IMG/VR virus record: IMGVR_UViG_3300024999_000141
Span: 1 to 53,648 of that record
Origin: a virus
Length of the DNA stretch: 53,648 bases
Direction: 5' to 3' (one strand)
Shown here one piece after another: positions 18,372 to 37,838 of the stretch. The first letter of the stretch is position 1, and each line of letters opens with the position of its first letter. The position numbers were made by a program, and so were the translations under genes. The notes under the pieces were generated by a model. That model saw only the letters and a list, made by a program, of their open reading frames with translations. It searched no databases and was not told where the DNA came from.

Positions 18372-18633
18372 GCCCATCGCTTCCCGTCCCCGCAAGGCGT
18401 GGCTGGTGACCGGCTTCGACGCAAGTTGCGTCTGCTGGGTGGAGAGTCGCGGCAAGGCCCGGATGTTGGCGGCTCGTAGTGCCCACGAGGCACTCAACAT
18501 CCCAATCGGCGATGCACTCAAGGGGCTGTCGGTGAAGCGAAGTCCGGCTCACGACTACCTGACCGGGCATTACGTCCCGTCGATGGTGATCGACGTCGAA
18601 TACCTGGCGATCGATGAGGCCCTCCGTGGGTGA
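18364..18633 (+). CDS. Hypothetical protein
   Basis: 89 residues from GTG 18364, overlapping the upstream stop by 8 bases in the context GTGGGTGAGC. The same start context recurs at 18629, inside the methyltransferase gene. The protein is strand-rich (AWLVTGFDASCVCWVESRG, PSMVIDVEYLAIDE). No family recognised. Confidence 0.5.
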   Translation: MGEPIASRPRKAWLVTGFDASCVCWVESRGKARMLAARSAHEALNIPIGDALKGLSVKRSPAHDYLTGHYVPSMVIDVEYLAIDEALRG

Positions 18634-20488
18634 GCGCACCTACCGCATCCTGCACCTCTTCGCCGGCATCGGCGGAGGCGCCCTCGGCTTCCAGGCCGCG
18701 GCAGCGCAGTGGGGTGGCCTCGCGGGCCGCTTTGAGACCGTCGTCGGCATCGACTGCGACGCCGCTGCCTGTGCGGACTTCGAGGCGCTCACCGGGGCCA
18801 GGGCCGTCCGCGCTGACCTGGCCACGATGACCCCGGCCGAGCTGCTTGCTGTCGCCGGCGACGAAGCGCCCGACGTGGTCTTCGCCAGCCCCCCATGCAA
18901 GGGCTTCAGCGGGCTGCTGCCCAAGGCCAGCGCCGCCGGGGAGCACTACCAGCTGCTCAACCGGCTCGTCCTGCAGGGGCTGTTCCTGGTACTGGAGGCG
19001 TGGCCGGCGCGCCCCCCGCGGCTGATCCTCATCGAGAACGTCCCCCGGATCGTCTCCCGCGGGGCCGTGCTGCTGGCGCAGGTCGAGCAGCTGCTGCGCT
19101 CCTACGGCTACCGCTTCGACCGCAGCACCCACGACTGCGGCGAGCTCGGCGGCCTCGGGCAGCACCGCAGCCGGTTCCTCCTGCTGGCCCGGCACGAGCG
19201 CCAGCTGCCGTCGGTGGTCTACCGTCCGGCGAAGAAGCGGGTGCGCTCGATTGGCGAGGTCCTCGAGCAGCTGCCCCTCCCCGGCGAGGCGTCCGCGGGT
19301 CCGCTGCACCGGCTCCCCCGGCTGCAGTGGAAGACGTGGGTGCGGCTGGCGCTGATCCCGGCCGGTGGCGACTGGCGCGACCTGCCGCAGGGCGAGTACG
19401 CCGTGGTCGGGGATCCGGGCAAGTTCAAGGGCAGGCCCGGTCTGATAGGCGTGGCGCCGTGGGACGAACCGGCCTCGGCTGTCACCGGCAGCGCCAGCGC
19501 GACCGGGAGCAACGGCATGGGGGCCGTCGCCGATCCACGTCCCGGCCGGGTCGTGCAGCCCTTCAACAACGTCTACCGCCTCATGCGCTGGGATCAGCCG
19601 TCCGGCGCGGTCACCGCTGGCGGCGGCCCGAGTTCGAGCGGCGTCTGCGTCGCCGACCCTCGGCTGGGCCACGAGCCCCGCAAGGGCGCCCTCCGCATGA
19701 TCCCGTGGGGCGAGCCTGCTCCGACAGTCACCGGGGCCGCCGGCATCGGCCGCAGCTGCTCCTACGGCGTCGCCGACCCGCGCACCTCCGGGCGCTTCCA
19801 CAACCAGCTGCGGGTGGAGGCCTGGGGCGAGCCGGCGCACACCGTGACCGGGGTCGATCACGTCACCGGCGGAGCCCCATCGGTCGCCGACCCTCGGCTC
19901 GGCTGCTCCCCGCGCTCTGGCGCCTACCGAGTCCAGCGGTGGGACGAACCGGCGAGCACCGTGATCGGCAGCGCGGACGTCCACGCCGGCAGCTCGGCGG
20001 TCGCCGACCCCCGCATCCCCGGGCCCGACGATCGGCTGGACCCCGCCCCGGTCATCATCGCCGAGGACGGCACCTGGCACCGGCCGCTGACGACGCTGGA
20101 ACTCGCCGCGCTGCAGGACCTGCCGATGCGGATGGCCGACGGGTCGCCGCTGACGCTGGCCGGGCGAAGCGACAAGGCTTGGCGGGAGCGAGTCGGGAAC
20201 GCCGTCCCGGTGGGCACGGCCCGGGCCATCGCCGAGCAGCTGCTGGAGACGCTGCTGCAGGCGGACTCGGGGCTTTGGCTGGTGCCGCAGGGCCACGGCG
20301 AGGTGTGGGTCGAGCAGCCCGAGCGCGCGGCGCTGGCGGACGACCGCTGCGAGATGGACACGGTCGGACACCAGTGCGCCTGCGACCGGGTGTGGTGCGC
20401 GGACGTGGCAGAGGGCGGGGATTGGTGGCTGAGCCGGGGCTTCGCTGGGGATGAGCTGAGGCCTGAAGCAGGAGGAACGGAACGATGA
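18614..20488 (+). CDS. DNA cytosine-5 methyltransferase with five repeated recognition modules
   Basis: 624 residues. C5-methyltransferase motifs are clear: LHLFAGIGGGALGF (I), FASPPCKGF (IV, catalytic Cys95), LIENVPRI (VI, residues 140-147), QHRSRFLLLA (VIII) and WRERVGNAVPVGTARAIA (X). Between VIII and IX, residues 280-470 hold five copies of a 39-43 residue module, W-(D/G)-(E/Q)-P-x3-V-(T/I)-(G/A)...VADPR, with Trp at 283, 326, 365, 404 and 443. One W-x-x-P-x-x-T-V-T unit is normal in the target-recognition region. GTG 18629 is an alternative start. Likely role: protection from restriction. Confidence 0.9.
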   Translation: MRPSVGERTYRILHLFAGIGGGALGFQAAAAQWGGLAGRFETVVGIDCDAAACADFEALTGARAVRADLATMTPAELLAVAGDEAPDVVFASPPCKGFSGLLPKASAAGEHYQLLNRLVLQGLFLVLEAWPARPPRLILIENVPRIVSRGAVLLAQVEQLLRSYGYRFDRSTHDCGELGGLGQHRSRFLLLARHERQLPSVVYRPAKKRVRSIGEVLEQLPLPGEASAGPLHRLPRLQWKTWVRLALIPAGGDWRDLPQGEYAVVGDPGKFKGRPGLIGVAPWDEPASAVTGSASATGSNGMGAVADPRPGRVVQPFNNVYRLMRWDQPSGAVTAGGGPSSSGVCVADPRLGHEPRKGALRMIPWGEPAPTVTGAAGIGRSCSYGVADPRTSGRFHNQLRVEAWGEPAHTVTGVDHVTGGAPSVADPRLGCSPRSGAYRVQRWDEPASTVIGSADVHAGSSAVADPRIPGPDDRLDPAPVIIAEDGTWHRPLTTLELAALQDLPMRMADGSPLTLAGRSDKAWRERVGNAVPVGTARAIAEQLLETLLQADSGLWLVPQGHGEVWVEQPERAALADDRCEMDTVGHQCACDRVWCADVAEGGDWWLSRGFAGDELRPEAGGTER

Positions 20489-25599: not shown

Positions 25600-26046
25600 C
25601 TACCCCGCCGAGAGGGACAGAGCAAGTACCACCCCACCGACGATCCCAACGACCACCCCACCAACCCCCCACAGCGCCCTGGCCGTCCAGTCCGCCGGGG
25701 GAGGGCGCACCACCGTCGCCACCGGGCATCCGACCCCCGCGGCCACGTCCCCACGGCACCGGGTCAGCTGCAGCTGCAGCTCGGCCCGCGCGTCGTCGCT
25801 GGCCTGCAGGTCGGCCTCGAGGTCACCGAGCAGGCGCACCGCGAGCAAGGCCTCCCGAGCGTCCGCCGGGGTCAGCGCCTGGAGCGGTTCCGTCACCAGC
25901 TGGCCCGGCAGGCAGAGCGCCGGCGGTAGGCAGGGCAGCGGGGTCACCGCCTGCGGTTCCTCCGGCGGGTCCGTCCCCGACGACTGCGCCAGCGCGGGCC
26001 CGGCGAGCAGCAAGAGCAGCGGTGAGAGCAGCAGCGACCTGGTCAT
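25600..26046 (-). CDS. Exported protein with C-terminal membrane segment (spanin-like)
   Basis: 148 residues. The signal peptide MTRSLLLSPLLLLLAGPALA is followed by a Pro-rich stretch, a coiled coil (EALLAVRLLGDLEADLQASD) and a C-terminal transmembrane helix (ALWGVGGVVVGIVGGVVLAL). The N-terminal export signal and C-terminal anchor recall unimolecular spanins, but there is no lipobox Cys. Its first 224 bases overlap the preceding gene in another frame, an arrangement seen in Rz/Rz1 pairs. Confidence 0.55.
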   Translation of the reverse strand: MTRSLLLSPLLLLLAGPALAQSSGTDPPEEPQAVTPLPCLPPALCLPGQLVTEPLQALTPADAREALLAVRLLGDLEADLQASDDARAELQLQLTRCRGDVAAGVGCPVATVVRPPPADWTARALWGVGGVVVGIVGGVVLALSLSAG

Positions 26047-26302
26047 CGGGGGTAGCCTCCACGGTGCGGGCGATCTCAGCGGCGCGGGCGCGGCGCTCGG
26101 CCGAGGCGAGGGCGCTCTCTGCGCGGATGAGGGCTTCGTCCATGGCTTGATTGCGGGCACTGAGCTGCCGCAGCTGCCCGGCGTTGTCGGCCTGCAGCTG
26201 CTCGAGCACGCGGGCATCGGCGCGGCGCTGGAGCCAGAGCCAGATGCAGAGCGCCGCCAGGGCAGCGGAGACGAGGGCGAGGGCGACGATCCAGCCGGTC
26301 AC
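25823..26302 (-). CDS. Rz-like inner-membrane coiled-coil protein
   Basis: 159 residues. An N-terminal transmembrane helix (MTGWIVALALVSAALAALCI) is followed by a coiled coil (RVLEQLQADNAGQLRQLSAR, ALIRAESALASAERRARAAE). The last 70 residues are low-complexity Gly/Ala/Pro, translated from the region shared with the overlapping gene. Topology matches i-spanins. Lying between the endolysin/holin genes and the exported protein supports a role in outer-envelope disruption, though no host with an outer membrane is established. Confidence 0.55.
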   Translation of the reverse strand: MTGWIVALALVSAALAALCIWLWLQRRADARVLEQLQADNAGQLRQLSARNQAMDEALIRAESALASAERRARAAEIARTVEATPDDQVAAALTAALAARRARAGAVVGDGPAGGTAGGDPAALPTAGALPAGPAGDGTAPGADPGGRSGGLARGAPAR

Positions 26303-26305
26303 GTC

Positions 26306-26503
26306 TCAGCCCCCCGGCTGCAGCTTGGCGCGCACCGCCGCGTCCTTGGCCTCCAGCAGCTTGCGCAGCGCCACCGTCCGCTCCGGGCCTGCGTCGATCG
26401 TCGAGCAGATCAACTGTGCCAGTTCGCCGAACGGCCTGCTCACCTCTTGCAGATGCTCCGGCAGGTGGGCAAAGGCGAACCACTTCAGCATTCGTTCTCC
26501 CAT
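26306..26503 (-). CDS. Acb2/Tad1-like hairpin-domain protein (candidate anti-CBASS sponge)
   Basis: 65 residues from ATG 26503 (a second ATG lies four codons in). The pattern FAFAHLPEHLQEVSRPFGEL and ERTVALRKLLEAKDAAVRA forms a two-helix hairpin that I associate with the Acb2/Tad1 group (DUF7681). Known members form small oligomers that bind and sequester cyclic oligonucleotide signals of CBASS, and in some cases Thoeris signals, leaving the host defence inactive. It sits among late lysis genes. The family call is from memory of the motif; nucleotide-binding residues cannot be verified here. Confidence 0.6.
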   Translation of the reverse strand: MGERMLKWFAFAHLPEHLQEVSRPFGELAQLICSTIDAGPERTVALRKLLEAKDAAVRAKLQPGG

Positions 26504-26513
26504 CGTCGACTCC

Positions 26514-26669
26514 TCAGTCGCTGTACCCGCGCAGGGGCGGCTTGGTCGGGGCGTCATCAAGCAGCCGCCGGGCGAGCTGACGCATCTTACGGGCGGTGCA
26601 GCGCTTCACCAGCCGGCGACCGTTGTGGCCGGGGAAGTTGGGGCAGATCTGGCGGGTGATCAGGGCCAT
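26514..26669 (-). CDS. Small basic protein (51 aa)
   Basis: MALITRQICPNFPGHNGRRL, then VKRCTARKMRQLARRLLDDA and a short tail. Two Cys and strongly basic. AGGTGAAC precedes the ATG. No family recognised; it lies between the holin-like gene and the Acb2-like gene. Confidence 0.5.
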   Translation of the reverse strand: MALITRQICPNFPGHNGRRLVKRCTARKMRQLARRLLDDAPTKPPLRGYSD

Positions 26670-26782: not shown

Positions 26783-27376
26783 TCAGATCCCGGCGCCGCT
26801 CTTCAGCGCCTTGGTCTCCGGCGATTCGATTCCGAGCAGGGAGCGAGCCAGCCCCTGATGCAACGCCACGGCAGCGGGCCCGGAGAGCAGGGCGAGGGTG
26901 AGGGCCTCCAGCCAGGGCATCCCCGCGGCCAGCGCTGCCAGTGCCGCCGCGGCGCACCCCAGGGCGAGGGGCACGAGGATGCGCCACCGCTTGTCGATCT
27001 TGTCGAGCACCCCGAAGTAACGCAGCAGTGCGGTCAGCAGCGAGACGACCGCGGCCAGCGCAGCGAGCCAACCTCCGGTGCGGTAGGCGTCGAGCACCCC
27101 GGTCGCGCCGGAGAGCAGCTGGTCCCCGGTCGGGGGCGGCACGATGAGCGGGGGCATGATCACCGGCTCCGATGCGGGCACGACCGCCACCGGCAGCACC
27201 GCCGGCGGAAGCGGCTCGGACGGGGGCACCGGCGCTGCGGTGACCGCGATGGCCGGCTGCTCGGCCACGGCGGGGACGTCGGGCACGGGCGGTCCCTCCG
27301 GGCCGGGCTGGGCCATGGCGGTGAGCGGCATCATCAGCGCGAGCAGGAACAGGGCCAGGGGTCTTCCTCGGAACAT
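26783..27376 (-). CDS. Holin-like membrane protein with Pro-rich exported region
   Basis: 197 residues. The signal-like N-terminus (MFRGRPLALFLLALMMPLTA) is followed by about 60 residues rich in Pro, Val and Ala, then two or three hydrophobic helices (GGWLAALAAVVSLLTALLRY, ILVPLALGCAAAALAALAAG, LTLALLSGPAAVALHQGLA). Placement directly after the endolysin gene and the multi-helix C-terminus suggest the holin. The long Pro-rich exported segment is unusual for one. Confidence 0.55.
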   Translation of the reverse strand: MFRGRPLALFLLALMMPLTAMAQPGPEGPPVPDVPAVAEQPAIAVTAAPVPPSEPLPPAVLPVAVVPASEPVIMPPLIVPPPTGDQLLSGATGVLDAYRTGGWLAALAAVVSLLTALLRYFGVLDKIDKRWRILVPLALGCAAAALAALAAGMPWLEALTLALLSGPAAVALHQGLARSLLGIESPETKALKSGAGI

Positions 27377-27418: not shown

Positions 27419-28234
27419 TCAGTACTTCACCCCGACCTGGGCGGGATCCCATGCCTCGGGGATCGGGGAGCCGCCCTCCAGGGTGGGCGCGGTGGTGAGG
27501 CCGAGCTCGGCGAGCATGGGCAGCGCCACGGCCTGCCAGATCGCGCTGCCCGGGTCGGACTGCTTCTCGGCGCAGGACTGCCGGTGCGCTGCGAGGTACC
27601 GCACCTCCCCGCCGTGGGCCGCCACCGTGGCTACCGCCAACCGCACCGCCTGCTGCGTGGCGTCGATCATCTCGATCGTGAAGAACTGCTCCCTGGCCCG
27701 CTCCCCCGTCGCCCCCTTGGGGGTCCAGAGCGTGCGTTCGTCTCCCTGGACGCCGGCGTACCAGCCCTCGACCTCGATCCCCACGCTGCGGCCGTTCCAC
27801 CCGTGGCCGTGCCAAAGCAAGGTGTCGCAGTCGTAGAGCCAGGCCGCTACCCCGCTCCGGAGCGCGGCGAAGTGGATCGCCAGGTCGCGCCACCTGGTCC
27901 ACGGGCCGGGGCCGGCGCAGGCCATCTGGTGCAGGACGACCGTATCGATCCGGCTCCAGCTGTTGCGGCCCCGGCGCGCCCGGCCGGCGTGGCGATCGCG
28001 CACGTCGATGACCCGGTCGCCTGGTCGCGCTGCGGCGAGGTATCGCGTCTGACGCTCGAGCAGCTCGACCAGGGCGAGGCCCTCGAGGGCGACGGTCTGC
28101 GCCTGGTCGCTCTCCCACGCGGCGAGGGCGGCCGAGGTCTCCGCGCCCCAATGCCCGTCAGCCCCCCACCGCGGCAGGGGGTAGCCCTGGGCGATGAGGG
28201 CGAGCTGCAGGCGGAGGGTGAGGGCGGGGGTCAC
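27419..28234 (-). CDS. Endolysin: N-acetylmuramoyl-L-alanine amidase with peptidoglycan-binding domain
   Basis: 271 residues from GTG 28234 (GTGA overlap). Residues 5-45 are a peptidoglycan-binding domain (LQLALIAQGYPLPRWGADGH, GAETSAALAAWE). Residues 95-245 are an amidase-2/PGRP domain: zinc ligand His102 in TVVLHQMA, RSVGIEVEGW, and LAAHRQS (His217) followed by SDPGSAIW. The enzyme cleaves the MurNAc-L-Ala bond for host lysis. No signal peptide, so it relies on a holin. Binding domain at the N-terminus, catalytic domain at the C-terminus. Confidence 0.88.
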   Translation of the reverse strand: MTPALTLRLQLALIAQGYPLPRWGADGHWGAETSAALAAWESDQAQTVALEGLALVELLERQTRYLAAARPGDRVIDVRDRHAGRARRGRNSWSRIDTVVLHQMACAGPGPWTRWRDLAIHFAALRSGVAAWLYDCDTLLWHGHGWNGRSVGIEVEGWYAGVQGDERTLWTPKGATGERAREQFFTIEMIDATQQAVRLAVATVAAHGGEVRYLAAHRQSCAEKQSDPGSAIWQAVALPMLAELGLTTAPTLEGGSPIPEAWDPAQVGVKY

Positions 28235-29540: not shown

Positions 29541-31226
29541 TCAGCCGCAGGCGGCGAGTGAAGTTCTGTCGAGGCGGTAGGCGCTGCGCCAGGCCGAGAG
29601 CATCTCGGATGCGAATCCCCCGCGCTCCCATGGATTCCCGCCTTCCGTCCCCGTCCATCGCGCCCATGGGATGGCCAGGCCCCGCTTGGTCCGCTCCCGC
29701 GTGATCGACACCGGGACGCCCAGCCGCTCCGCCACGTCCCGCAGCAGCGCCTTCGTCCAGTCCGGGTCGATCTTCAGCCGGGCGGGGAGGGCGACGGCAA
29801 ACTCGATGATCCGGTGGTCGAGAAACGGCGCCCGGTTCTCCAGCGAATGCGCCGCGGCCATGCGGTCGGCCATCCGCAGCAACAGCTGCATAGTCGTATG
29901 CCACTCGGTGCGGGCCATCCCGCTCACGAGCTGGCCGGGGCGCACCTCTCCGGCGCAGCGGTCGACCAGCTTTCGCGCCGTCGACAGAGCACCCGGACCG
30001 CCGCGGTTGAGCAACCGGGCGAGCACGTCCGCCTCGGAGCCGAGCAGCTTCTCCCGCGTTGGTCGGTAGGCACCGAGCAGCGGGTCGAGGGCGGCGCTGT
30101 CCAGGTGCGACAGCAGCCGGTAGCGGCTGTAGCCCCAGAACAGTTCGTCGGCGCCCTCGCCGGAGAGCACGACGCGCCCCCCGTCCGCAGCGATGCGCTC
30201 GAACAGGTGCCACTGGCAAACAGCGGTCCACGTCGCCGGGGTGTCGAGGTGGTAGGCCACCCGGGGCAGCACGGCCCGCAGCTCGGCCAGCCCGAAGCGG
30301 ACCGGGATGACCTCGCCTGCTCCCGCAGCGGCCTGCCGAGCGGCGCGCATATTGTCGAGGCCGTCGTCCTCGAACGAACAGCAGTAGAGCGCATCACACC
30401 GTGCGACCGCCTGGACGATCGCCGAATCGAGCCCGCCGGAGAGCAGCACGGCGACCGGCACCTCGGCGACGCAGCGCAGCCGGATCGCGTCGACGACCAG
30501 CGCCTCGAGCTCGTCGAGCGCCGCGGCACGCGTGACCCCCGAGTCCTCGCCCCCGCGCGGCAGCACCCACCACGCCCTCGGCCGAGGGTCCGCTACGTCC
30601 TCGAGGGAGCGGATCAGGAGGCACTCCCCCGGACCCAGTCGGCGGACACCGGAGAACGGAGTGGCCTCGAGGCAGTCGAACTCGAGGCAATCGAGCTCTG
30701 GGCAGGGCACCTCCCGCAGCTCGCCGGGGAGGGCCTTGATCTCGGATGCGAACCAGAGCTCGCCGCCGCCGGCCCGCCAGTAGAGCGGCTTCTCGCCGGC
30801 GCGGTCCCGCGCCAGGAAGACGACGCCGACCTTGAGGTCGACGACGGCCAGGCCGAACATCCCGTTGAAGCGCTCGAGCATCCCGGCGCCCCACCTCCGC
30901 CAGGCGCGGGCGACAACCTCGGTGTCGCAGTCCGACTCCCAGGGTTGGCCGTCCGACAGCTCGGCCCGGAGCGCGCGCCAGTTGTAGATTTCTCCACAGA
31001 AAGCAACTGCCACGCGCGGCCCAACGAAGAGCTGCGGCACGCAGAGGTCGCTCTGGTCGACGATCTTCAGGCGCGCCGTCCCAAGAGAGACGAGCCCCCA
31101 CGGTAGTTGGAAATGCCGCTCCCCTGCCGTATCCGGGCCACGATGGCTTAGCCTGGAGACAGATAGACCAGTATTCCCACAATCCGAACCGCCCGGCGGA
31201 AGCACAGATCCGACAATTCCGCACAT
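29541..31226 (-). CDS. asnB: Glutamine-dependent asparagine synthetase-like amidotransferase
   Basis: 561 residues, full length for AsnB. The glutaminase domain has the nucleophile Cys2 (MCGIVG), LSHRGPD and SDCDTEVV. The synthetase domain has the pyrophosphate loop LSGGLDSA (263-268) and GEGADELFWGYSRY. Odd point: the glutaminase loop usually written NGEIYN reads CGEIYN (Cys77), changing an oxyanion-hole residue. AsnB homologues also amidate sugars in surface-glycan clusters. Here it heads a cargo cassette with methyltransferases, a radical SAM protein and glycosyltransferases. GAGGTGG precedes the ATG. Confidence 0.92.
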   Translation of the reverse strand: MCGIVGSVLPPGGSDCGNTGLSVSRLSHRGPDTAGERHFQLPWGLVSLGTARLKIVDQSDLCVPQLFVGPRVAVAFCGEIYNWRALRAELSDGQPWESDCDTEVVARAWRRWGAGMLERFNGMFGLAVVDLKVGVVFLARDRAGEKPLYWRAGGGELWFASEIKALPGELREVPCPELDCLEFDCLEATPFSGVRRLGPGECLLIRSLEDVADPRPRAWWVLPRGGEDSGVTRAAALDELEALVVDAIRLRCVAEVPVAVLLSGGLDSAIVQAVARCDALYCCSFEDDGLDNMRAARQAAAGAGEVIPVRFGLAELRAVLPRVAYHLDTPATWTAVCQWHLFERIAADGGRVVLSGEGADELFWGYSRYRLLSHLDSAALDPLLGAYRPTREKLLGSEADVLARLLNRGGPGALSTARKLVDRCAGEVRPGQLVSGMARTEWHTTMQLLLRMADRMAAAHSLENRAPFLDHRIIEFAVALPARLKIDPDWTKALLRDVAERLGVPVSITRERTKRGLAIPWARWTGTEGGNPWERGGFASEMLSAWRSAYRLDRTSLAACG

Positions 31227-34421: not shown

Positions 34422-35515
34422 AGGGCAGCCTCGACGAACTCAGGCGGCTCGCTGCTCGTCATCGTGTAAAGCTGCGGAGGGGTGACGAAGTACCCGGGCA
34501 GTCCGACGCCGTCGTCCCCGCGCCAGCTGCATGCGTTCGAGCCGACCACCGCAGGACGGGCGCGTAGCGCCTCGTGACTGGCGATCGTCCCGTCCAGCCA
34601 GTAGACCTGCATGTAGTGCGGGTGTGGATCGATGAAGTGCCAGGACCCCGAGTACCATACCTCGGCCGCCGTGTGCCCGTGGACGCCGTCCGAGTGGTGC
34701 ATCGCCACCATCCGGCCGGGCAGGCCGAGCAGCCGCCTCGCCAGCCAGAGCAGGACCCGCACCATCTGGTCGCACCACCCGATTCCGCCGATCAGAATTT
34801 CCAGCGGCCGCAGCTCGCCGGTGTGCTCCGGGCAGCCGCGCAGGTAGGTCCCGACCCAGACGACCAGGCGCGGCAGCTGCTCGCCGAGCGGCCCCGTGCC
34901 GATGGCGACCCGGGCGAGATGCAGGTAGTGGTGCAGCGGGTCGATCTCCCGGTGGATCACGACGCCGAAGTTGGCCGCGCTCTCGTCTGCGGACAGCGGC
35001 GCCAGGCGCAGCGGCGGGCGGTGGTCACCGATGTTCATCGACCACACCTCCGCGTCGAGCCCGGCGAGCAGCTGGACCAACTCCAGTGGCGAGTACTCGC
35101 GGACGTGGAACGCATTGCCCGCGCCCCACTGGTTCCAGTTCGGGGTCGAGAAGAACACGCCGACCCGCGCCACCCGGAGCAGCTGCGCGAGGAAGCCGAC
35201 GTCGTCCTCGACGTGCTCGATGACGTCCAGCGAGACGACCCAGTCCCAGCTGCCGGAGGGGTAATCCTCGATGCGCCCCGGTTGCACCAGCGGCCCGGCC
35301 GGCAGGAGATCGAATCCCTCGCAGACGCAGCCGGCCTCGCGCAAAATCTCGATGCCGTACCCCGTGCCCGCGCCCGCATCGAGCACGCTCTGGCCCTGGA
35401 CTCGGGCGGCGACCCAACGGTACCAGCGCGCCTGGCAGCCGTTCGGCTGCGCCTTCCGCTCCTCGACCGTGAGCTCGTGCATGTTGGAGACCGGACCGGC
35501 GTTGCGCGGCGTCAC
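34418..35515 (-). CDS. Methyltransferase-transglutaminase-like fusion
   Basis: 365 residues. Residues 25-190 are a class I methyltransferase (SVLDAGAGTGYGIEILRE, DWVVSLDVIEHVEDDVGFLA). Residues 235-330 are a transglutaminase/cysteine-protease-like domain with an intact triad: Cys248 in IGGIGWCDQMVRVLLWLAR, His281 in GHTAAEVWY and Asp296 in FIDPHPH. Such domains cleave or cross-link peptide or amide bonds. The fusion is rare in phages. ATGA overlap with the radical SAM gene. Confidence 0.8.
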   Translation of the reverse strand: MTPRNAGPVSNMHELTVEERKAQPNGCQARWYRWVAARVQGQSVLDAGAGTGYGIEILREAGCVCEGFDLLPAGPLVQPGRIEDYPSGSWDWVVSLDVIEHVEDDVGFLAQLLRVARVGVFFSTPNWNQWGAGNAFHVREYSPLELVQLLAGLDAEVWSMNIGDHRPPLRLAPLSADESAANFGVVIHREIDPLHHYLHLARVAIGTGPLGEQLPRLVVWVGTYLRGCPEHTGELRPLEILIGGIGWCDQMVRVLLWLARRLLGLPGRMVAMHHSDGVHGHTAAEVWYSGSWHFIDPHPHYMQVYWLDGTIASHEALRARPAVVGSNACSWRGDDGVGLPGYFVTPPQLYTMTSSEPPEFVEAAL

Positions 35516-37467
35516 AGAGCGCGCTCCACGAAGGCGGCGTAGCGGTCAGCCCACGCGGACCAACTCCAGCGCTCGGCGATCTCCCGCCGGTTGATCGCGC
35601 CCATGCGCTGCGCCCGGCCGGGGTCCGCCTGCAGCCGACGCAGCGCAGCGACGAAGGCCTCGACGTTGCGCTCGACGATCTCGATCCCGGTCTCGCCCAG
35701 GTGCTCGATCTGCGAGTCCCGCAGCTCCCGGTGGTTGCCGCTGTCGGTGGTGATCAGAGCCTGCCCCGCAGCCATCGCCTCCATGGTCGAGTTGGACGCT
35801 CCCTCGAACAGCGAGGCGCAGAGCGCCACCGAGCCGCGGCGGTAGAACGCCGGCATCTCAGCGGGAGGCAACCGGCAGGTGTGGTACTCGGCGATGACCA
35901 GCGGCGTGTGCGACTGGCGGCAGGCCGGCTCGACGATCGAGTGGAAGCCCTTGACGTCGATCCCGCTGCCGGCCGAGTTGTGCTGCGCATTGCCGTTCCA
36001 GCTGGCGACGACGCCCGGCGTCTCGCCGCGATCGAACCGGCGCACGTTGACCGGGTTGGTCAGGTAGACCGCGCCGGGACAGTGCTCCCGCAACTCGGCG
36101 AAATTAGCCGCGGTGACGACGTGGAACGCGGCGAAGCGGTTGACCAGGTCGAACTCTGCGGGGCCGGGCGGGGCCATCCGCTCCGGGTAGAACCACTGCG
36201 CCCGCAGGGAGCCGAGCACCCGGCCGCGCGGCAACACCCGATCCAGCGGCCAGCGGTGGTACGGGGCGAACACGGCGTCGTAGCCCGCCATGTCCGTGCG
36301 GGCCGCTCCACCGCCGGCGACGTAGGCGAAGTCGAACGCGAAGCGGTCGCCGAGGTACTCCGCCATGTCGTGCAGGTTCTGGTCGAACGCCCACCCCGGC
36401 ACGTCCGCCAAGAGCAGCACCCGCGGCTTCGCACCGGCCGGCTGCGGGCGCAGAGGCACGATCGGCCAGGGGCGCGGCGATCCCGAAGCTGCAGTCGGAG
36501 TCGGGCTGACCGCAGCGATGCGGCGGAGCTCGACGACCGGCGGATCCGGGTCGGACGCAGCAACGGCCGTCAGGCCGAGCGAGGCTGCGACCACCTCGGC
36601 GTAGGGCAGTCGGCGCAGCGGCACGGGCGGGGCCTCGAGCGCGGAGCGCACCGCCTCGATCCAGCGCCCGGCCGGAGCATCCACCGGAAGGAACGTCGCC
36701 GAGGTGCGGAGCGCGGCCCGGCAGCCGGGGATGTCCGACGTCACGACGGGAATTCCACGGACGGCGGCCTCGGTCATCGCCAGCGGATGCACTTCCGCCC
36801 GCGTCGGCGACAGGACCAGGAGCGCCTCGCTGAGCCAGCGATCGGGGGTCATCCCGGAGGGGGCGATCGTGACGTGCGGCAGCCGACGCCAGAGGGCCAG
36901 CTCCTGATCCGTCGCACGCCCGGGCATCACGAACCACGGGACGTCGAGCACCTGCTGCGCCACGGCGAGGGCGACCGGACCGCCCTTCGCTCGCGAGGCG
37001 CCGGGGACCACGATCGCCGAACCGACCGGCGCTCCGCCGCGCTCCGCCGCCCAGGTCGACGGGGGCAGAACGAAGCTGCGCGACCAGCCGCGCTCCGGCT
37101 CACCGAGCTCGCTCGACTTCGCCAAGGCAGCGCCATAGCCGGGGGGCAGCGGCCCGTGGTGGTGCCAGTACACCAGCCGGTTCAGCGCCCGCGCCTGTTC
37201 GGCGGCGCGCGCCGTGCGCAGCCAGGCCGGGTTGATCGTCGTGATGACGAGGTCGGCCGTCCAGTCGTCGGGGGTGATCAGCAGAGCGCGGGCGAGCCAC
37301 GTCACGCACCGATGCTGCCACGGGGGAGCGGTGCCCTCCGCGTGGTGGCAGCGCACCGTGTGGCCCAACTCGGCGAGCGTCCATGCCAGGAACGACACGG
37401 CGATCGACATCCCGTCCCGCCCGCCATCCGGGCCACCCCATCGGCGTGCGAGCAGGTCGATCCGCAT
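35512..37467 (-). CDS. Double glycosyltransferase (two GT-B units)
   Basis: 651 residues from ATG 37467. The N-terminal GT-B/GT4-like unit (about 1-330) has RRWGGPDGGRDGMSIAVSFL, SAIVVPGASRAKGGPVALAV and LLVLSPTRAEVHPLAMTEAA. The C-terminal unit (about 345-651) has VLLLADVPGWAFDQNLHDMA, GAVYLTNPVNVRRFDRGETP and ASLFEGASNSTMEAMAAGQA (EX7E-type). Each is shorter than a typical GT4 but both keep the nucleotide-sugar half. It could build a disaccharide on a virion protein or a host surface glycan. Confidence 0.82.
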   Translation of the reverse strand: MRIDLLARRWGGPDGGRDGMSIAVSFLAWTLAELGHTVRCHHAEGTAPPWQHRCVTWLARALLITPDDWTADLVITTINPAWLRTARAAEQARALNRLVYWHHHGPLPPGYGAALAKSSELGEPERGWSRSFVLPPSTWAAERGGAPVGSAIVVPGASRAKGGPVALAVAQQVLDVPWFVMPGRATDQELALWRRLPHVTIAPSGMTPDRWLSEALLVLSPTRAEVHPLAMTEAAVRGIPVVTSDIPGCRAALRTSATFLPVDAPAGRWIEAVRSALEAPPVPLRRLPYAEVVAASLGLTAVAASDPDPPVVELRRIAAVSPTPTAASGSPRPWPIVPLRPQPAGAKPRVLLLADVPGWAFDQNLHDMAEYLGDRFAFDFAYVAGGGAARTDMAGYDAVFAPYHRWPLDRVLPRGRVLGSLRAQWFYPERMAPPGPAEFDLVNRFAAFHVVTAANFAELREHCPGAVYLTNPVNVRRFDRGETPGVVASWNGNAQHNSAGSGIDVKGFHSIVEPACRQSHTPLVIAEYHTCRLPPAEMPAFYRRGSVALCASLFEGASNSTMEAMAAGQALITTDSGNHRELRDSQIEHLGETGIEIVERNVEAFVAALRRLQADPGRAQRMGAINRREIAERWSWSAWADRYAAFVERAL

Positions 37468-37469
37468 CG

Positions 37470-37838
37470 TCAGCGCTCCTCGAAGACCACGACGGAGAAG
37501 CCCGACGCGAGGTCTTCGCAGGTCACATACACATCGGTCGGGGTCCGGAACGACCAGAACTCGTAGGCGTACCCTGCCGATCCGGGGCTCACGACGACCT
37601 GGGTCGTGTGTTTGTCGTGAGGGCGGGCGAGTCGCAGCCGCACGACGTACGGACCCGCACCGTTGAACGTCGGAATCGTGCGGCCGAACTCCCCACCAGA
37701 CGAGACCCACATGGGCTCGCCGCCGCTCCAGACCACGGCTCCCCATGCGATCGGCACCAGAGCGGCCGTCCCGCGCGGCAGGCCGCGGGGACCACGGGAG
37801 GCCTTCAGCCGAGCACCCCGCCCAGGCAGGCCGGGCAT
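37470..37838 (-). CDS. Hypothetical tail-associated protein
   Basis: 122 residues. The N-terminus is basic and low-complexity; the rest is a beta-rich domain (GRTIPTFNGAGPYVVRLRLA, YEFWSFRTPTDVYVTCEDLA). It lies between the fibre-type genes and the glycosyltransferase. It could be a fibre tip, a chaperone or a small virion protein. Start ATG 37838 overlaps the upstream stop. Confidence 0.55.
   Translation of the reverse strand: MPGLPGRGARLKASRGPRGLPRGTAALVPIAWGAVVWSGGEPMWVSSGGEFGRTIPTFNGAGPYVVRLRLARPHDKHTTQVVVSPGSAGYAYEFWSFRTPTDVYVTCEDLASGFSVVVFEER

Follow-up and report, generated by a model that had tools for sequence, protein, structure and literature searches.

A widespread phage helical-hairpin protein remotely related to PF24729 proteins and its possible role as a nucleotide sponge

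The protomer of Acb2 is composed of one short N-terminal helix and two antiparallel helices (PMC10419184), and in Tad1 an N-terminal beta sheet precedes the helices (PMC12043709). The gene described here is located in a stretch of 53,648 nucleotides from an IMG/VR virus record (hereafter, the window), which has a G+C content of 71%, and it encodes a protein of 65 residues, to whose homologues we refer as the hairpin family. The hairpin family is predicted to have the same helix layout as Acb2 (PaMx33/PaP2 gp24-p26, T4 Vs.4) and also carries an aromatic residue where Acb2 has its N-terminal tyrosine, but it differs from Acb2 in having neither a direct profile match nor the lysine that follows this tyrosine 15 residues later (the +15 position). 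The similarity to Tad1 from a Clostridium botulinum prophage is limited to the hairpin clan and is established through PF24729 only; unlike Tad1, the window protein is modelled with helices only, and the N-terminal beta sheet is missing. A further comparison can be made with the PHROG 1454 branch of PF24729, represented in phages of Mycobacterium, Gordonia and Paenibacillus. Hairpin length, a colinear helix register, an N-terminal F-x-[FY] motif and the signature of the second helix are common to this branch and the hairpin family, whereas the hairpin family scores below the Pfam cut-off and, in the end part of the second helix, MWANAAI of the branch gives way to KDAAVRA in the family.

The hairpin gene and its surroundings

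The hairpin gene was found on the minus strand of the window, and its open reading frame (26306-26503) is translated as MGERMLKWFAFAHLPEHLQEVSRPFGELAQLICSTIDAGPERTVALRKLLEAKDAAVRAKLQPGG. The features of the gene, of its product and of the adjacent genes are as follows.

26306..26503, minus strand: gene of the 65-aa helical-hairpin protein, stop codon included, with an ATG start (ORF translation, AlphaFold2, homologues)
26510..26515, minus strand: Shine-Dalgarno sequence GAGGAG, 6 nt 5' of the hairpin-gene ATG, in overlap with the upstream gene's stop codon
26477..26494, minus strand: short N-terminal helix, residues 4-9 (AlphaFold2 model)
26399..26458, minus strand: first long helix, residues 16-35 (AlphaFold2 model)
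26321..26386, minus strand: second long helix, residues 40-61 (AlphaFold2 model)
26327..26383, minus strand: signature ERTVALRKLLEAKDAAVRA, residues 41-59, in register with the REKSLAITKLEEAVMWANAAI-type signature that PF24729 proteins carry
25823..26302, minus strand: Rz-like inner spanin, next gene downstream of the hairpin gene (PHROG 2466, E = 2.7e-4)
26514..26669, minus strand: 51-aa ORF upstream of the hairpin gene, matching no family
26783..27376, minus strand: hydrophobic ORF, possible holin on a weak match (PHROG 1299 holin, E = 0.09)
27419..28225, minus strand: N-acetylmuramoyl-L-alanine amidase endolysin (Amidase_2; PF01510, E = 6.3e-8)

The GTG start of the next gene, at position 26302, is situated 3 nt past the stop of the hairpin gene, a spacing as in an operon. 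Comparison of the nucleotide sequence with those of six relatives indicates that the hairpin gene is translated, conserved and under strong purifying selection, because pS values of 0.68-0.98 were obtained as against pN values of 0.15-0.21, with third positions carrying most of the changes. Additionally, a second metagenome contig, with 100% identity to the window along 8.3 kb, contains an identical copy of the gene.

In order to predict the fold of the window protein, a monomer was modelled with AlphaFold2 from an alignment of 66 sequences. The model (mean pLDDT 93.7, pTM 0.80) consists of a short helix and a two-helix hairpin, with the helix limits listed above. This bears out the description of the protein as a 65-residue helical hairpin in an earlier, sequence-only reading of the same DNA, and the two sequence motifs quoted there are both present in the 65-aa translation. 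The placement of the gene in a lysis region, also made in that reading, agrees with the Rz-like spanin and the Amidase_2 endolysin. These belong to a minus-strand lysis cluster with the order amidase, hydrophobic ORF, 51-aa ORF, hairpin gene and Rz-like spanin, and the portal and major capsid genes are located to the right of it. Other genes observed in the window encode an asparagine synthase with a glutamine amidotransferase domain (29541-31226, minus strand), next to a tail gene in the late region of the phage; a glycosyltransferase (Glyco_trans_1_4) of 744 aa (35512-37746, minus strand), within the late gene block; and a C-5 cytosine DNA methylase (18614-20488, plus strand), in the rightward gene block.

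Relationship to PF24729 proteins

The sequence-only reading had likened the protein to the Acb2/Tad1 group of sponges and had named a profile search against DUF7681/Acb2 as one way to verify this. In this search PF24729 gave no match to the window protein; the same was true of the 65 aligned homologues (Pfam, curated cut-off of 27 bits), and T4 Acb2, used as a control with the same Pfam library, scored 71.4 bits (E = 7e-20). When HMMs of Acb2 and of its nearest PF24729 relatives were used, the scores of the hairpin family were not above those of shuffled controls, and hhalign comparisons of the family with Acb2 and with the closest PF24729 set were not significant. The window protein, the profile of its family and a homologue with two domains were each used in PDB sequence searches, which returned chance matches only, with neither Acb2 nor Tad1 among them.

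The link to PF24729 was obtained through PHROG 1454, which matches 56 of the 66 hairpin-family members (best E = 6e-5) as well as T4 Acb2 (E = 7e-4). The PHROG 1454 branch of PF24729 comprises proteins of Mycobacterium, Gordonia, Paenibacillus, Streptomyces and Lactococcus phages, and the five members that were scanned with Pfam were all assigned to PF24729 (E = 1e-14 to 2e-27). An HMM of this branch scored above 12 bits with 40 of 164 family ORFs (best E = 9e-5) versus none of the 19,023 other ORFs from the same loci. Acb2 and the hairpin family are at a similar distance from this HMM, their best scores being 19.7 and 21.2 bits, respectively, and hhalign aligned the family with the branch at a probability of 85.5% over 26 columns. 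The window protein alone scored 6.6 bits and is thus among the weaker scorers of its family, so that the homology inference holds for the family, to whose aligned members the window protein is 59-84% identical. In the PHROGs collection, the window protein is placed in PHROG 1761 (E = 1e-26) and PHROG 5120 (E = 1e-19); the profile of PHROG 1761 includes an N-terminal P-loop-like extension that the window protein does not have. In a tandem-hairpin protein adjoining one of the homologues, one and the same set of residues is matched by PHROGs 5120, 1761 and 1454.

As for the fold, a Foldseek search of the PDB with the window model, including a second look, listed neither Acb2 nor Tad1 nor anything specific, an absence that proves nothing by itself; a PF24729 model used as a control in the same search placed Acb2 and Tad1 at the top, albeit with weak E-values. 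In the BFVD, five of the first six matches are 43-52% identical to the window protein and are apparently its relatives, and 16 of the 27 matches at ranks 7-33 are named as Acb2/Tad1 hairpin proteins. These names probably derive from the same Pfam model, so the BFVD result tests the fold and not the function. The confident model and its BFVD neighbours agree in giving the window protein a two-helix hairpin fold like that of the clan members.

By way of the PHROG 1454 bridge, the hairpin family is therefore linked to PF24729 proteins by a remote homology that exceeds chance, and we consider it very probable that it belongs to an Acb2/Tad1 hairpin clan that is wider than PF24729. Consequently, the likeness suggested in the sequence-only reading is retained as remote homology and, in the viral models, as fold, but membership in PF24729 is not. 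A failed Pfam search can evidently miss relatives of the sponge clan.

Distribution and gene neighbourhoods of the family

Homologues of the window protein were found in 317 phage records, in at least 578 stretches of IMG/VR, in at least 196 bacterial genome stretches (many phyla according to the record titles, several of them MAGs) and in 25 plasmid records. Phages and prophages with a gene for the hairpin protein number in the hundreds and span many bacterial phyla; no model of Pfam or NCBIfam matches the protein, as judged from searches with the window protein and, for Pfam, also with the 65 aligned homologues; the family may nevertheless already have been studied. Twelve columns are invariant in the 66 sequences, namely F9, S22, F25, A29, L46, L49, L50, E51, K53, D54, V57 and R58.

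The position of the gene varies among phages. It follows the RNA polymerase gene in Vibrio phage phiV141, is flanked by the genes of topoisomerase and rIIA in the T4-like Acinetobacter phage 133, comes after the head morphogenesis genes in Ab105-2phi and, in Citrobacter phage phiNP, follows Rz. At 213 loci no dominant neighbour cluster was observed, since the immediate neighbours form about 160 clusters per side, each with four members at most. A tie to lysis genes was considered as a general rule and was rejected on account of these varied positions and neighbours. The late position proposed in the sequence-only reading is therefore correct for the phage of the window, where the gene lies in the lysis cluster, but is not a general feature of the homologues. 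A true PF24729 gene was seen between lysin B and holin genes in a Mycobacterium abscessus prophage (L457:114-389), which means that members of the annotated clan, too, can be placed late, in the lysis region. At L023 (4424-4927), and likewise at L031, L033 and L034, a second protein, apparently made of two divergent tandem hairpins, is encoded upstream of the gene for the single hairpin, at a distance of at most about 1 kb.

Genes of Tad2-like proteins (PF11195) directly adjoin the homologue at five loci (L213:6198-6746, with E = 1.6e-23; L230:6198-6710; L244:5288-5947; L036:3664-3867; L393:1340-1483), and at a sixth such a gene is about 1 kb away (L404:283-579). Tad2-like neighbours were also found at the Acb2 loci L111, L128 and L160. 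As support for a sponge function this neighbourhood is thin and suggestive only, because a Tad2-like gene is present anywhere in the record in only 2 of 51 long records. A motif search for RyR-domain neighbours gave no credible match.

Ligand-site residues, candidate functions and fusions

Acb2 blocks CBASS by binding cyclic di- or trinucleotides, and we take its cyclic-dinucleotide contacts to be tyrosine Y11 (PaMx33) and, 15 residues later, lysine K26. The +15 lysine is kept in 64 of 65 Acb2 sequences and in all 37 sequences of the close PF24729 set that were caught by the pattern. At the tyrosine position, an N-terminal aromatic residue (Y, F or W) was identified in 61 of the 66 hairpin-family sequences; at +15, no lysine occurs among the residues found in these 66 sequences, the commonest being G, A, C, H and S. 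The +15 register was set manually and agrees with the aligned second helices. Because the lysine is absent from the family, an Acb2-style dinucleotide pocket is unlikely, and another pocket is possible. Its absence throughout the family likewise makes it doubtful that the protein is a CBASS cyclic-dinucleotide sponge in the manner of Acb2, an assignment to which we would give only a low probability.

The explanation that we favour, with a probability of about 0.5, is that the window protein, encoded by the phage, represents an unannotated branch of its own within the Acb2/Tad1 hairpin clan, and that it probably acts as a sponge whose nucleotide signal is not that of Acb2. That it would be a nucleotide sponge of some kind is an even bet. 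By analogy with the Acb2 homohexamer, several copies would probably come together through the two long helices to form a particle in which pockets lie between the protomers; such pockets would sequester a small nucleotide signal from the host defence, and capture of the signal would delay abortive infection until lysis. Since the family has lost the lysine of Acb2 and instead keeps another set of polar residues invariant (S22, E51, K53, D54 and R58), the ligand or the binding mode would likely differ from the cyclic dinucleotides of Acb2. A more specific and tentative proposal is that the family forms a separate and very widespread sponge lineage that captures a defence nucleotide outside the range of Acb2, with these five invariant residues forming the pocket in place of the lysine. 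Should the protein prove to be a sponge, the counter-defence repertoire would be considerably enlarged, and the invariant residues would make the question of the ligand directly testable.

Alternatively, the protein could be a hairpin of the same clan that binds a host protein instead of a nucleotide and, for example, redirects a conserved host machine. The charged second helix (R47, K48, E51, K53, D54, R58) is invariant or nearly so, such constancy across phages of many phyla is unusual for a defence antagonist, and some phages have the homologue beside RNA polymerase or replication genes. We nevertheless regard binding of a host protein as rather unlikely, given that the closest relatives, by structure and by sequence, come from a clan in which nucleotide sponges are proven and that some homologues adjoin Tad2-like genes.

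It is improbable that the hairpin is a product of convergence, having only the shape of Acb2/Tad1 and neither common ancestry nor sponge function. A two-helix hairpin is a simple fold, and the negative direct profile searches and the unspecific PDB fold search would be expected in that case; however, the bridge HMM separates the family from natural ORFs, the register of the second-helix signature agrees by independent routes, and the structural neighbours are specifically those of the Acb2/Tad1 hairpin clan. A role as an accessory of the lysis module, either as an antiholin or as a regulator of the spanin, is suggested by the adjoining Rz spanin in the window and in phage phiNP, and we consider it most improbable, as the 65 residues contain no apparent membrane segment or signal sequence and the homologues are also found far from lysis genes, in neighbourhoods without a dominant cluster.

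Fusions of the hairpin to other domains were also observed. The fusion partner is an N-terminal P-loop-like domain with the motif GPVGVGKS in Erwinia phages (L371:1477-1905) and, in a Mesorhizobium genome, a small, probably beta-rich domain (L220:5791-6186), for which a Tad1-like architecture was considered and found to be unsupported. The BFVD entry A0A6G6XYP8 of Ochrobactrum phage vB_OspP_OH, which was the best structural match, is a 122-aa protein annotated as Anti-TRAP domain-containing and apparently represents a further hairpin fusion.
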